Source of the DNA: Chloroflexota bacterium
GTDB taxonomy: Bacteria; Chloroflexota; Limnocylindria; Limnocylindrales; CSP1-4
Direction of reading: 5' to 3'
Length of the DNA stretch: 64,000 nucleotides
Assembly (NCBI GenBank): GCA_019637815.1
Contig: JAHBUZ010000007.1
Coordinates: 62,001-126,000 of the forward strand
Shown: positions 3,443 through 54,589 of the stretch, in pieces
Layout: every line of letters starts with the position of its first letter
Numbering within the stretch: position 1 is the stretch's first letter
Program-made: the position numbers and the translations under genes
The notes under the pieces: model-generated
Seen by the model: the letters and a program-made list of their open reading frames with translations, nothing else
Told to the model about the DNA's origin: nothing
Database searches by the model: none

Positions 3443-4858
3443 ATGCCCCCCGACGACACCCACGCCGCCCCGACCACCTCGCGGGCACCGCGACTCCAGG
3501 TCCACCCGACCAACCCCCGATACTTCGCCGACCCGTCCGGCCGTGCGGTGCTGCTCACCGGCTCCCACACCTGGCTCGTGCTCCAGGACGGTGGGGTCAC
3601 GAACCCGCCGCCCCGGTTCGACTACGACCTGTGGCTGCGCTGGATGGACCGCAAGGGCCATCGCTTCTTCCGGATGTGGTGCTGGGAGCAGTCCCGCTGG
3701 CTCGCCCACCAGCCGAACGACTACTGGATCGACCCGGTGCGCTACCAGCGCTCGGGCACCCAGACCGGTGGTGACGGCCTGCCGCGCTTCGACCTCACGA
3801 AGTTCGACGAGCGCTACTTCGACCGCCTCCGGGAGCGCGTCCGCGCGGCCGGTGAGCTGGGCATCTACACCGCCGTGATGCTGTTCCAGGGCTGGAGCAT
3901 CGAGCCCAAGGAGTGGTACCTCTCGGCGGGCATGAACCCCTGGAAGGCGCACCCGCTGAACCGGGACAACAACATCAACGGCATCGATGGCGACCCCGAC
4001 CACGAGGACCACGGCCGCCTCACGCACACCCTGGCGCTGCCGGAGGTGCAGGAGATCCAGCGGGCATACGTGCGCCATGTCATCGAGGCGGTCGGCGACC
4101 TCGACAACGTGCTCTACGAGATCGTCAACGAGGACCTCGCCACGGACGAGAACTCGGCGTGGCAGGACGACATGATCTCGTTCATCCAGGCGACCGAGCG
4201 GGAGCGGGGCTATCAGCACCCGGTCCTGCGCACCGTCCAGTGGCCGGCACCCACGGACTTCGAGTCGCTCTACGAGAGCCCCGCGGAGGCGATCTCGCCG
4301 GGCTCGCCCGCCCAGCACGGGACGGGCATGGAGGACTACCGCAACGACCCGCCGCCGGGTGATGGCCGCAAGGTGATCATCAGCGACACCGACCACCTGT
4401 GGGGCATCGGCGGGGATGCGGGCTGGCCGTGGCGGGCGTTCATGCGCGGGCTCAACCCGATCTTCATGGATCCCTGGGAAGGCGATTTCGTGGTCCACGA
4501 GCCCTTCGATGTCGAGGCTCGTGACGCCATGGGTGTGACCCGGGCGCTGTCCGACCGGTTCGACCTGGGGCACTTCCTGCCGCGGCTCGATGTGACCTCC
4601 ACGCGCTATGCCCTGGTGGACGAGGGATCCGGCACGATCCTCGCCTACCAGCCCATCGGCGAGCACTTCACGGTGGACCTGGGCACGCCTGCGCGGGAGC
4701 ACACCGTGGAGTGGGTCCACCCGATCACGGGCCTCAGCCAGGCCGGCGAGTCGATCACCGGAGGCATGCTGCGCATCGTGCCGCCGTTCCGGGGTGGCGG
4801 CGTGGCCATCATCCGACCCGTGGACGACGCGGCACGCGATGGGCGGACCGACCGATGA
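3443..4858 (+). CDS. Second apiosidase-like/cellulase-fold glycosidase
   Basis: This 471-residue protein is related to but clearly distinct from the preceding glycosidase. It has YFADPSGRAVLLTGSHTW near residues 28-45, MWCWEQSRW, and YEIVNEDLATDEN, whose Glu after Asn fits the acid/base of clan-A glycosidases. A C-terminal beta domain contains EWVHPITGLS. The ATG at 3443 follows a GAGG site; an in-frame extension upstream only overlaps the previous gene and is not needed. No signal peptide is seen. It ends in an ATGA overlap with the dehydrogenase gene. Two different intracellular glycosidases suggest the transporter imports an apiose-containing glycoside or oligosaccharide. Confidence 0.72.
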   Translation: MPPDDTHAAPTTSRAPRLQVHPTNPRYFADPSGRAVLLTGSHTWLVLQDGGVTNPPPRFDYDLWLRWMDRKGHRFFRMWCWEQSRWLAHQPNDYWIDPVRYQRSGTQTGGDGLPRFDLTKFDERYFDRLRERVRAAGELGIYTAVMLFQGWSIEPKEWYLSAGMNPWKAHPLNRDNNINGIDGDPDHEDHGRLTHTLALPEVQEIQRAYVRHVIEAVGDLDNVLYEIVNEDLATDENSAWQDDMISFIQATERERGYQHPVLRTVQWPAPTDFESLYESPAEAISPGSPAQHGTGMEDYRNDPPPGDGRKVIISDTDHLWGIGGDAGWPWRAFMRGLNPIFMDPWEGDFVVHEPFDVEARDAMGVTRALSDRFDLGHFLPRLDVTSTRYALVDEGSGTILAYQPIGEHFTVDLGTPAREHTVEWVHPITGLSQAGESITGGMLRIVPPFRGGGVAIIRPVDDAARDGRTDR

Positions 4859-5898
4859 GCGGCACCGAGCCGTTCCGGGTCGGCCTGACCCGGAGCCTGT
4901 TCCATGCCGATGGCACCCCCGCGTTCGACTTCGGCCTGGAGGTGCTCGAGGCACGATCGGACATCGCGTGGGAGGTCATCCCGACCGACGAGACCGAGCT
5001 GCCCGCGGCGGCGCTGGCAGGCTACGACGCGATCATCGTGGAGCTGCCCGGTGACGTGACCGCGCGCTCGGTCGAGGGGAACGATCGGCTGCGCCTCGTG
5101 GCCCGCGTGGGCGTGGGCTATGACTCGGTCGACGTGCCCGCGCTCGATGCTCGCGGCATCCTGCTCACCAACACGCCGGACGGCGTGCGTCGGTCGATGG
5201 CCACCGCGGCCGTCACGTTCGTGCTGATGCTCAGCCAGCACGTGACCCAACGGGACCGCCTGAGCCACGAGGGCCGCTGGGCGGACCGTGGCGGATACGT
5301 GGGGATCGGCCTCACCGGGCGGGTGCTGGGGCTCGTCGGTCTCGGCAACATCGGCCGGGAGGTGGCCCGGCTCATCGCGCCCTGGGACATGGAGGTCATC
5401 GCGTCCGACCCGTATGTCACGCCGGAGCAGGCGGCATCGGTGGGCTGCACGCTCACGTCGCTCGACGAGGTGCTCAGCCGGTCGGACTTCGTGGTCATCA
5501 CGTGCGCGCTCGTGCCAGAGACGTATCGGCTCATCTCCGCCGAACGGATCGGACGCATGAAGGAGAGCGCGTTCCTCATCAACATCGCGCGCGGCCCGAT
5601 CGTCGACCAGGCGGCGCTGACCCAGGCGCTCATCGACCGCCGCATCGCGGGCGCCGGTCTCGACGTGTTCGAGGACGAGCCCATGGCGCCGGACGACCCG
5701 CTCATGGGGCTCGACAACGTGGTGCTGACGGCGCATTCGATCGGCTGGACCGACCAGTGCTTCCGTGACTGCGGCCTGAGCGCCATCGAGTCGGTCATCA
5801 GCGTGGCCGAGGGACGGCTTCCGGCCACCATCGTCGATCGTGCCGCGCTCGCGCATCCGCGCTGGGCCGGCTGGAAGGAGGGTTCCACGGATGGCTGA
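4855..5898 (+). CDS. D-isomer-specific 2-hydroxyacid dehydrogenase
   Basis: This 347-residue NAD-dependent dehydrogenase has the Rossmann motif LVGLGNIGREVARL at about residues 159-172. Its catalytic set is Arg in NIARGPIVD (about 246), Glu in DVFEDEP (about 274) and His in TAHSIGW (about 294). The ATG overlaps the preceding stop as ATGA, and the gene overlaps the next one by 8 nt, so the three are translationally coupled. The family interconverts 2-hydroxy and 2-oxo acids, which suits oxidation of a branched aldonate such as apionate. The exact substrate, and whether it acts as an oxidoisomerase, cannot be read from sequence. Confidence 0.85.
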   Translation: MSGTEPFRVGLTRSLFHADGTPAFDFGLEVLEARSDIAWEVIPTDETELPAAALAGYDAIIVELPGDVTARSVEGNDRLRLVARVGVGYDSVDVPALDARGILLTNTPDGVRRSMATAAVTFVLMLSQHVTQRDRLSHEGRWADRGGYVGIGLTGRVLGLVGLGNIGREVARLIAPWDMEVIASDPYVTPEQAASVGCTLTSLDEVLSRSDFVVITCALVPETYRLISAERIGRMKESAFLINIARGPIVDQAALTQALIDRRIAGAGLDVFEDEPMAPDDPLMGLDNVVLTAHSIGWTDQCFRDCGLSAIESVISVAEGRLPATIVDRAALAHPRWAGWKEGSTDG

Positions 5899-51460: not shown

Positions 51461-53455
51461 TCAGGGACCGGTCGACAGCTTGAGCTGGACCGCGGTCCCC
51501 TTCGCGACCTTCCGCGGGGACCCGTCGCTGTTCTGGTAGGACGGGGTGGTGTTGACGGCCTTGCCGGACGCCACCGCGCCGTTGGACACCTTCTTCGTGG
51601 ACTGGACCTTGAGCCCCGCCGCTTCGATGGCGGCGATGGCCTTCGCCTTGCTCAGGCCCCGGACCTTCGGGATGGCGACCTTCCCGGTGGTGGTCGAGCT
51701 GCCACCCGCGGCGCTCGCCGGTCCCGGCCCGGAGGACAGCTTCAGCTGGACGGTCGAGCCCTTCTTGACCTTGCGCGGCGTCCCGTCAGCGTTCTTGAAC
51801 GAGGGGTAGGTATTGACGGCCTTGCCCTTGACCCACTTGGTGCTCTCGACCTTCAGATCCGGCGTCTTGACCTTGAGACCGGCGGCCTCGATGGCGGCCT
51901 TCGCCTGGGCCTTGGTCATGCCCGCGATCTTGGGGATCGCGACGTTCCCGGCGGGAGCGGGTGAGGACGGCGGGGCGCTCGGACTCGGGGACGGCGATGG
52001 CGTCGAGCCATCAGGCCCGGAGGAGATCTTGATCTGGATCGCGGTGCCCTTCGCCACCTTGCGTGGCTCGCCGTCCACCTTCCAGGTCGGCGTCGTGTTG
52101 ACCGCCCGCCCGACCTTGACGGTCGCGTGGGTGACGGTCTTCTCCGGGCTCTTGACCTTGAGGCCGGCGTCCTTGATGGCCTGCTTCGCCTGGGCGAGGG
52201 TCAGGCCCTTGACGTTCGGGATCGCCACCTGTGCAGCAGGAGCCGGCGTGGACGGCGGGTCGCTCGGCGTGGGGGTCGGCGGCGGCGCACCGTCGCCGGC
52301 GCTCTCACGCCACTCGGCGGCCGTGAGACCCAGGTCACCCGTGATGGCGCGGACGTACCCGAACCGGACCACGCCGGAGCCGTTGGGGTTGGCGATGTTC
52401 TTGGTCTTGCCCGCGAACTTGTTGAGCCAGGTGATGTTCGGCTCGTTCGGATCCCATGACGACGGCAGCGACGGGGTCGCGTTCCGGGCGAACAGGTCCG
52501 GGTCCATGTGGATGCGGCCGGGGCTGCGCAGGTCCGAGCCGTCCGAGCGGCGGGTGACATAGAAGTCGGTCGTGCCGATGGCCCCGAAGTTCGGCAGATA
52601 GGCGTCCTTCCACGCGGCGCCCGTGTTCCGGGAGTACGTGGTCATGAACGTCTGGTCCATCGTCTTGTTGGACGTCATGAGGGTCTTGATGAGGGTGCCC
52701 TTCGGGTCGGCCTTGTCGAAGCTCTGGCTCTGGAGCGCCATCACGACGCTCGGACGACCACCACCCACGGAGGTCGTGCCGAGGAAGCCCTGGGCGAAGT
52801 TGTCGACATGGTCGATGGCCAGCTCGTAGGTCGGGATCCGGTCGTAGTCCTCGGAGTTGCCGGCGGTGAAGCACATGTGGCTGAGGATCACGACCGCGTT
52901 CGGCGCGAGCTGGATGTTCTGGCGGACCCAGTCGGCCCCGTAGTACTTGTTGGTCGACGATCCCTTGGACGCGTTCAGGCCCAGGCCATGGGCGCTCGCG
53001 GTCTCCGGGGCCGAGGTGCCGGTGCCGTCCTGCTTGGTCCGGTTCGGCTTCGGATAGCCGTTGCCGTGCATCAGCGTGACGAACAGGTCCGCGCCCTTGG
53101 CGGCCTTCTTGACGGTGGCTGCGTCCGCGTTGGGCGTGTACACCTTGCACACCTTCATGCCGGCGTCCTTGGCGGATGCGGCGATCTGGTCGGCCCACTG
53201 CTTGAACTTCGTGGTCATGCTGCCGACCGGGCCGACCACGATGACGGCCTTGTAGGCGGGCTGACCCGTGCAGTTGGAGCCCGTGCCGTCCGTCGCGTCG
53301 GAGATGCTGCCCTGGGGCGGCGGAGCCGAGGGCGGCTCGGCCGCGGCCTGGACGCTGGTCGTCAGGGCGCTGGACGCGAGGAACAAGGCCGCCAAAGCGG
53401 CCACGGCTGCCGATCGCCGCGGGGCACGTCGCGGCGCAGCATGGGCGAGCTGCAT
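51461..53455 (-). CDS. Secreted three-PASTA protein with possible caspase-like domain
   Basis: The 664-residue protein has a signal peptide (basic start, hydrophobic 15-31, cleavage near VQAAA). A 300-residue N-terminal domain has strands ending in LFVTLMHGNG (His130) and AVVILSHMCFTAGN (Cys195). A Pro/Thr linker and three PASTA repeats follow, each starting like VAIPNVKGLTLAQAKQAI or VAIPKIAGMTKAQAKAAI. The spacing and context of the His-Gly and Cys sites resemble the catalytic dyad of clan CD peptidases; this is inference. PASTA domains bind peptidoglycan, so it probably acts at the cell wall. The ATG at 53455 follows GGAGAG. Confidence 0.75.
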   Translation of the reverse strand: MQLAHAAPRRAPRRSAAVAALAALFLASSALTTSVQAAAEPPSAPPPQGSISDATDGTGSNCTGQPAYKAVIVVGPVGSMTTKFKQWADQIAASAKDAGMKVCKVYTPNADAATVKKAAKGADLFVTLMHGNGYPKPNRTKQDGTGTSAPETASAHGLGLNASKGSSTNKYYGADWVRQNIQLAPNAVVILSHMCFTAGNSEDYDRIPTYELAIDHVDNFAQGFLGTTSVGGGRPSVVMALQSQSFDKADPKGTLIKTLMTSNKTMDQTFMTTYSRNTGAAWKDAYLPNFGAIGTTDFYVTRRSDGSDLRSPGRIHMDPDLFARNATPSLPSSWDPNEPNITWLNKFAGKTKNIANPNGSGVVRFGYVRAITGDLGLTAAEWRESAGDGAPPPTPTPSDPPSTPAPAAQVAIPNVKGLTLAQAKQAIKDAGLKVKSPEKTVTHATVKVGRAVNTTPTWKVDGEPRKVAKGTAIQIKISSGPDGSTPSPSPSPSAPPSSPAPAGNVAIPKIAGMTKAQAKAAIEAAGLKVKTPDLKVESTKWVKGKAVNTYPSFKNADGTPRKVKKGSTVQLKLSSGPGPASAAGGSSTTTGKVAIPKVRGLSKAKAIAAIEAAGLKVQSTKKVSNGAVASGKAVNTTPSYQNSDGSPRKVAKGTAVQLKLSTGP

Positions 53456-53580
53456 CGAGTCTCTCCGGTTTTTGCTGGGGCACGCCCGGAGGGACGCACC
53501 TGTCACTTCACACAGGCTCGCGGGTGTGAAGGGACCTTATCCATATCCTGATGGTCAGGGGCACCTAGGCCCATGGTGCC
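53456..53580 (-). promoter_or_regulatory. Structured leader of the PASTA gene
   Basis: Three consecutive hairpins can form. Arms at 53575-53580/53560-53565 are GGCACC and GGTGCC; arms at 53524-53531/53506-53513 are CTTCACAC and GTGTGAAG. The third, at 53486-53491/53463-53468, has arms CTCCGG and CCGGAG. The last arm contains the ribosome binding site GGAGAG, which would be hidden when the hairpin forms. It matches no riboswitch class I know. Confidence 0.4.
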
Positions 53581-53641: not shown

Positions 53642-54589
53642 TCAGCGACGCGGCGTGGGCCTGGGGGTCCGGCGGGGGCGCTGGGTGGGCTCGGGTCGGT
53701 CGGTCGCATCGGGGTCTGCGGTCGGTCTCGGCGTCGGGGTCGCGCCGGGCAACGGGTCCGGCCGGAAGTCGGTGACCACGAACACCTGCTCCATGCCATC
53801 GAGATGCGCCGCCGGCTCGATCCGCGCCGCGATGGTGATGTCCACGGCCGTCCGGTCGACCTCCACGATGGTGCCGATGGTGATGCCGCCGGGGAATCGT
53901 GGCCGTGCCTCCTGGCGGATGCCCACCCCCGCGGTGACCACGACGTCCCCGACCGCGATGTCCTCCCGCGCCGGCACGTTCTTCATCTCGAGCGGGGCGG
54001 AGAGGTTGCCGTGGACCTCGCCGGTCACCCGGGTCCGCACGTCACGCCCGATGACCAGCGATCGGGGATCGGTGATGAGTCGCACGGTCGCCCAGTTCCC
54101 GCCCAGCTCCGTGATGGCGCCCACGAGGCTGCCGCCAGCGGACAGGACGGTGGCACCGTCGAACAATCCGTCATCGGTGCCCCGGTCGATGATGATGAGC
54201 CGCTCAGGGCCTGACGGGTCGCTGTAGATGACATCGGCGACGATGGTCCGGTGCGGGAGCGTGCGTCGGTTGCCGAGCGCCTCGGCCAGTCGCTGGTTCT
54301 CGGTCTGGAGGACCGGCAGCTGGAGCAGCTGTTCCTCGTAGCGGGCGATGAGCTCCCGCTGGGCGATGGTCTCGCGTCGCAGCTGGTCGATCTCGGCGAC
54401 CGCGTCGAACACCGAGCCGATGGCCCGGGTGCCCCCGGTGAGGGTCTCGCGGATGGGTGTGAGCGCGAAGTTGACGCCGCCCCGGACGTCCTGGATGGGC
54501 TTGGTGTCACTGAATGCGAGCAGCAGCAGGCAGGTCGCCACCAGGAGCGCGAAGGTGATCGCCTGGCCTCGCAGGCCACGGTCGCTCAT
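53642..54589 (-). CDS. mreC: Rod shape-determining protein MreC
   Basis: The 315-residue protein has a short cytoplasmic start, one transmembrane helix (about residues 10-27), a coiled coil (about 64-108) and the paired beta-barrel domain with RGTDDGLFDGATVLSAGG and GDVVVTAGVGIRQEARPRFPGG. MreC links MreB to cell-wall synthases. The ATG at 54589 is preceded by GGGAG and lies 16 nt from the mreB stop. The last 40 residues are a Pro/Thr/Arg tail unusual in the family. No mreD gene follows. Confidence 0.9.
   Translation of the reverse strand: MSDRGLRGQAITFALLVATCLLLLAFSDTKPIQDVRGGVNFALTPIRETLTGGTRAIGSVFDAVAEIDQLRRETIAQRELIARYEEQLLQLPVLQTENQRLAEALGNRRTLPHRTIVADVIYSDPSGPERLIIIDRGTDDGLFDGATVLSAGGSLVGAITELGGNWATVRLITDPRSLVIGRDVRTRVTGEVHGNLSAPLEMKNVPAREDIAVGDVVVTAGVGIRQEARPRFPGGITIGTIVEVDRTAVDITIAARIEPAAHLDGMEQVFVVTDFRPDPLPGATPTPRPTADPDATDRPEPTQRPRRTPRPTPRR

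Follow-up and report, generated by a model that had tools for sequence, protein, structure and literature searches.

The gene at positions 51461-53455 (minus strand) of the window, by which we mean the whole 64,000-nucleotide stretch of DNA analysed here, probably encodes a secreted clan CD cysteine endopeptidase that is held at the cell wall, represents a family of its own and uses a Cys195/His130 dyad to cut proteins at or near the wall. Its features are listed here in window coordinates, which are those of contig C59 minus 62000.

51461..53455, minus strand: whole gene, an open frame of 664 aa comprising a predicted exported head of clan CD fold and three PASTA repeats
53459..53495, minus strand: leader hairpin, from a single-sequence fold and putative in function, with the GGAG that resembles a ribosome-binding site, immediately 5' of the ATG, in its 3' arm (CCGGAG)
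53339..53455, minus strand: predicted signal peptide, residues 1 to ~39, with an Arg-rich start, a hydrophobic stretch and VQAAA, read from the translation
52298..53272, minus strand: head domain, residues 62-386, with a clan CD (caspase-hemoglobinase) fold by AlphaFold, Foldseek, VIA and profile comparison
53066..53068, minus strand: codon of His130, the predicted general base, invariant in 81/81 heads and in register with the His of CHAT and C25
52871..52873, minus strand: codon of Cys195, the predicted nucleophile, invariant in 81/81 heads and in register with the Cys of CHAT and C25
52022..52228 (C59:114022-114228), minus strand: PASTA repeat 1, Pfam PASTA match and genome search
51734..51943, minus strand: PASTA repeat 2, Pfam PASTA match and genome search
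51470..51679, minus strand: PASTA repeat 3, Pfam PASTA match and genome search

The open reading frame from which an earlier note on this DNA started proves to be real at exactly these coordinates, its ATG lying at 53455 and preceded by a GGAG that resembles a ribosome-binding site and can be read directly. The head of ~325 residues is followed by a Pro-/Ser-rich linker and then by the PASTA repeats that the note had described, which are borne out in three stretches by a Pfam score of 82.5 bits (PF03793, cut-off 23.2), each repeat also exceeding the cut-off individually in a genome search. By a crude hydrophobicity test, a signal-type hydrophobic stretch is present in 76 of the 83 family heads that we compared, a set composed of the best 80 of 156 relatives, the window head and its two paralogues. 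In the mechanism that we envisage, the protein would leave the cytoplasm through the Sec pathway and be retained at the wall by its three PASTA repeats, presumably through binding to peptidoglycan; Cys195 would attack the peptide bond with His130 acting as the base, the substrates would be proteins at or near the wall, and any activation may be by cleavage.

That the head might be caspase- or gingipain-like had been suggested from the order of its strands and helices, and structure prediction agrees in giving a caspase-like fold. AlphaFold models were obtained as separate predictions for the window head (pLDDT 78.8, pTM 0.83, from an 81-row alignment) and for the stand-alone relative L038 (pLDDT 93.1, pTM 0.89); the two heads are 41% identical, and as their models share one sequence set they are not independent tests of homology. 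All 50 of the VIA matches listed for the window model are what we take to be clan CD proteins (CHAT, gingipain, caspase, legumain and MALT1, and including the CHAT part of DdvA), as are all 50 listed for the L038 model. For the window model these comprise SAVED-CHAT (8tl0; Z 13.6, rmsd 3.0, 180 aligned), DdvA (8rw5; Z 12.8, rmsd 3.4, 173 aligned), the gingipain RgpB (4ief; Z 12.3, rmsd 3.9, 190 aligned) and Csx29 (8eex; Z 11.3, rmsd 3.6, 177 aligned), with caspases, legumains, gingipain K and metacaspase 9 among the further matches listed; for the L038 model, SAVED-CHAT gives Z 14.6 (rmsd 3.2, 174 aligned) and RgpB Z 12.9 (rmsd 3.8, 178 aligned). Foldseek places RgpB at ranks 1-3 for the L038 model (E 6.5e-5 to 3.1e-4), after which come a C11 peptidase, caspases and, at 8.1e-4, a flavodoxin, and for the window model its best match is SAVED-CHAT at E 1e-3, with flavodoxins and caspases next. 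The proposed likeness to gingipains therefore stands at the level of fold, where RgpB is among the closest structures, but not at that of sequence, by which the head falls outside C25.

What follows the head varies across the family. A tail of at least 30 residues is present on 55 of the 83 heads, and the Pfam models found among these tails are FlgD_ig (31), CHU_C (18), Big_13 (17), CW_binding_2 (6) and PASTA (2). The clan CD enzymes GPI transamidase, the peptide asparaginyl ligases and PorU act as transpeptidases or sortases, and one can imagine a wall-side enzyme with the same fold and dyad as the window head that would cut off a sorting tail and attach proteins to an acceptor at the surface. 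The VIA matches listed do include GPI transamidase and asparaginyl ligases, and the FlgD-like Ig tails and CHU_C model matches would fit such a role; however, the CHU_C matches may merely reflect a related Ig fold, and 28 of the 80 relatives (the best 80 of 156) have fewer than 30 residues after the head. We regard a transpeptidase or sortase as unlikely, and return to an endopeptidase.

The residues that would carry out catalysis are conserved in every relative examined, a point on which the earlier note had been prepared to be refuted. His130 and Cys195 are invariant in 32/32 heads of a first alignment (A1), in 83/83 of a second (A2) and in 81/81 of a third (A3, which omits L004-L032 and the two paralogues), although A1 shares contigs with the other two, many of L004-L032 being the same contigs as L033-L112. 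Only 13 columns are invariant in the alignment, and both residues are kept in 10/10 divergent heads, nine of which come from other families of the class and phylum; judged from these alignments, conservation of the dyad is far beyond chance. Other polar residues are nearly invariant in A3 (Glu202 in 79/81, Asp218 in 81/81 and Asn161 in 76/81) but are partly lost among the divergent heads, so that the pair shared by all is His and Cys; since Asp218 is one of those lost, no specificity pocket can be named. The surroundings of the dyad are also as had been proposed: His130 lies in FVTLMHGNG, with the His-Gly after the hydrophobic strand invariant in A3, and Cys195 follows another hydrophobic strand in VVILSHMCF, both residues coming directly after core strands in the model (strand 61-67 then H69, and strand 122-131 then C134, where model numbering is the residue number minus 61). 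The order of the two residues is that of the clan CD dyad, as claimed, but the spacing, 65 residues in the window head and 56-65 across the family, exceeds the 33-47 of C25 and the 40-51 of CHAT when measured in the same way, and overlaps the 43-61 of C14. Fusion of the head to a wall-binding module might also suit a clan CD domain that is catalytically inactive, or regulatory, and uses PASTA to sense the wall, and clan CD does have inactive members, the pseudo-orthocaspases (PMC6426788). Yet a family of pseudo-enzymes would be expected to lose its dyad, which is kept throughout A3 and in all the divergent heads, and there is little probability that the domain is inactive or regulatory.

Upstream of the window gene, and on its strand, are radC, a methyltransferase gene, mreB and mreC; the glycosyltransferase genes that follow it share that strand too. 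(A sub-threshold Rfam snoRNA match antisense to mreC, at window positions 54188-54245 on the plus strand, reaches 23.4 bits of the 39 needed and is most likely due to chance.) The genome contains two paralogues of the head, 66% and 38% identical to it; one paralogue carries one PASTA repeat, and the adjacent gene that follows it encodes a PASTA repeat with a SpoIID domain. The proximity to mreB-mreC, together with this PASTA-SpoIID neighbour, suggests a role in wall upkeep. Both of the PASTA tails among the 55 belong to this genome, which makes fusion to PASTA a local variation; elsewhere in the family the anchor is a different module or is missing. PASTA repeats also occur elsewhere in the genome, where a single open frame of 1968 codons (C13:51121-55080, minus strand, locus L244) has 16 PASTA matches above the cut-off. 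It could be argued that a PASTA tail, a place after mreB-mreC and a paralogue adjoining a PASTA-SpoIID gene are what one would expect of a peptidoglycan amidase or stem-peptide hydrolase that does not cut proteins, but most relatives are without PASTA, and we know of no clan CD enzyme with either activity. Such a hydrolase seems to us decidedly improbable, and proteins remain the favoured substrates of the proposed endopeptidase.

By sequence the head stands apart from the catalogued families. The window head stays below the cut-off of every model in Pfam, NCBIfam and PADLOC, and no clan CD model of Pfam matches it even at E 1, its only Pfam match being to Flavodoxin_1 below threshold (17.2 of 25 bits). 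The window protein accordingly has no match up to E 1 to either C25 (PF01364) or CHAT (PF12770), and at E 1e-8 neither model has a match in the genome; PDB sequence searches with the head returned chance matches only. Among the 83 heads, the commonest sub-threshold Pfam matches with E no higher than 1 are to three clan CD families, C25 (19), CHAT (6) and C50 (5), with best E values of 2.1e-4 for C25 and 1.1e-3 for CHAT, and one distant head scores 15.3 bits of 23 against C25. For 81 heads, PADLOC matched none and three NCBIfam models each matched one head, the best at E 0.003 to a peptidoglycan hydrolase model, the window head having no such match. We compared the family profile by hhalign with profiles of Chloroflexota domains, built from 30 C25, 30 CHAT, 17 flavodoxin and 28 of 30 C14 sequences (L226 and L229 were left out, the strand of L229 being ambiguous, and for the CHAT locus L181 the strand free of stops was taken). 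The scores are 40.1 for CHAT, 36.2 for C25, 24.6 for flavodoxin and 23.5 for C14, where the maxima over 60 column-shuffled profiles are 18.7, 23.0, 20.1 and 16.8, respectively; the probabilities are modest (62%, 34%, 6% and 3%), and CHAT and C25 score 37.7 against each other with a probability of 46%. The conserved His and Cys of both CHAT and C25 pair with His130 and Cys195, and in the C14 alignment the His is out of register. Membership of C14 is not supported, there being no PF00656 match and a profile score not above that of the flavodoxin control. That the head is instead an open alpha/beta domain, flavodoxin-like or of another type, with no peptidase function, an identity raised by the weak Flavodoxin_1 match and by the flavodoxins in the Foldseek lists of both models, is very hard to credit when the flavodoxin profile aligns over 50 columns and that of CHAT over 130, and when none of the 50 VIA matches listed for either model is a flavodoxin. 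The clan CD reading of the head is thus supported by the predicted fold, by the invariant His and Cys and by their equivalence to those of CHAT and C25; fold and dyad place the head in clan CD, with CHAT and C25 as its nearest neighbours, and as it belongs to neither by their models it constitutes a family of its own.

The head family is centred on one class of Chloroflexota and is rare elsewhere in the phylum. Matches were found in 115 of 177 genomes of the class and, in an even sample of the phylum, in 43 of 400 genomes, 38 of them in the class and five outside it. Scanning contigs with the window head alone gave 14 stretches, none of which was confirmed, because the window head is divergent; with the 32-row alignment the scan gave 156 relatives, and the best 80 of these, used here, have titles naming Chloroflexi/Chloroflexota, Candidatus Limnocylindrales or Anaerolinea. 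A scan of viral contigs for head relatives gave 32 stretches, none confirmed. The proteins of four distant relatives (L252, L253, L254 and L257) share a short C-terminal motif, approximately V-[YM]-[LI]-P, a few residues and Arg, which is possibly a surface-sorting tail.

Conserved leaders precede the genes, although not the same one throughout. A 28-base stretch just 5' of the window start codon (53473-53500) occurs exactly four times in the genome, the other copies being at C1:22303, 22598 and 24386, and the reversed pattern has no match there; one copy each stands before the window gene, before its paralogue and before the PASTA-SpoIID gene, and the fourth comes before a truncated remnant of the paralogue's beginning. 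The hairpin listed above, which this stretch forms together with the bases after it, folds differently in one of the other three copies. Relatives have a different leader, a conserved and covarying RNA directly upstream of the head gene that overlaps its first codons. A covariance model built from 14 of these leaders, whose training sequences are by construction among its matches, was searched over 753 kb with an E limit of 1 and gave 27 matches: one at E 0.72 lies elsewhere, and of the 26 at E <0.01, 25 are in the relatives' loci (25 of the best 80 of 156) and one is in the stretch of the window's own genome that holds the C19 paralogue (L243); the window gene itself has no match. Examples are at 4803-4932 in both L055 and L068, 4797-4926 in L038 and 5390-5507 (minus strand) in L243. 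In 24 of 25 cases the end of the leader falls somewhere from 62 bases short of the head match to 38 bases past its start, and in L081 it is 299 bases short. In an alignment fitted to the model, changes on both sides are seen in 7/7 pairs of helix 1 and in 11/18 pairs of the whole structure, compared with a mean of 2.4 after shuffling. The leader is present in 19 of 28 tailless relatives compared with 6 of 52 tailed ones, a contrast for which the Fisher test treats related loci as independent. Rfam searches around the leaders in the loci searched gave nothing relevant, only a sub-threshold snoRNA match and a tRNA. By eye, a second conserved stretch can be seen upstream of the leader in L034, L038, L043, L046 and L090, running approximately ACAGGC, AACCGAAGAC, CGCCGCCCC, CGGCAGG, CCTGTC, and its ends could pair with each other. 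The leader presumably controls translation. It is tempting to speculate that this is a founding secreted clan CD family, about as distant from CHAT and the gingipains as those two are from one another, and the standard surface endopeptidase of the class, with interchangeable wall anchors, and that in one branch a dedicated structured RNA leader would keep the ribosome-binding site hidden pending a signal from the wall or from nutrients, but we put this forward tentatively, as a picture more doubtful than probable.

Clan CD gains a family, predicted to be secreted, that lies beyond the Pfam, NCBIfam and PADLOC releases searched and that occurs in the majority of genomes sampled from a class with few cultured members, where the wall-binding and Ig-type tails point to surface proteolysis. 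With mutable residues, domain borders and a high-confidence model in hand, activity, specificity and wall attachment are directly testable. The predicted peptidase family appears well supported, lies outside the catalogues searched and is unusual in its anchor, yet it is of a known kind. We found no paper on the head family or on a PASTA-clan CD fusion in the open-licence literature that was searched.

Among known systems, a joining of clan CD to the wall has a precedent in prokaryotic metacaspases, for which PMC3501461 describes 11 sequences with a putative peptidoglycan-binding domain. They share with the window protein the union of a clan CD domain and a putative wall-binding domain but are C14 peptidases, and the head here has no C14 match; the word PASTA is absent from the main text of that paper. 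The PASTA kinases of the PknB/Stk1 type have the same family of wall-binding repeats, whereas in the window protein there is no kinase and the repeats follow a peptidase-fold head. In a survey of estuary sediment, C25 genes made up 41-45% of the peptidase genes with a signal peptide (PMC6752024). Like the gingipains (PF01364; RgpB 4ief, 1cvr), the head is predicted to be secreted, has the same predicted fold (Z 12.3-12.9), places a His-Gly after one strand and the Cys after the next core strand, and has many relatives with Ig-like tails; it differs in having no C25 match and in the longer His-Cys spacing of its family. CHAT (PF12770; SAVED-CHAT 8tl0, Csx29/Craspase, DdvA 8rw5) gives both the best VIA (Z 13.6-14.6) and the best profile score, but the partners in those entries are CRISPR or anti-sigma modules, and the window head has no CHAT match. 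Since the family scores against CHAT and C25 about as these score against each other, it may help to place the two relative to one another.
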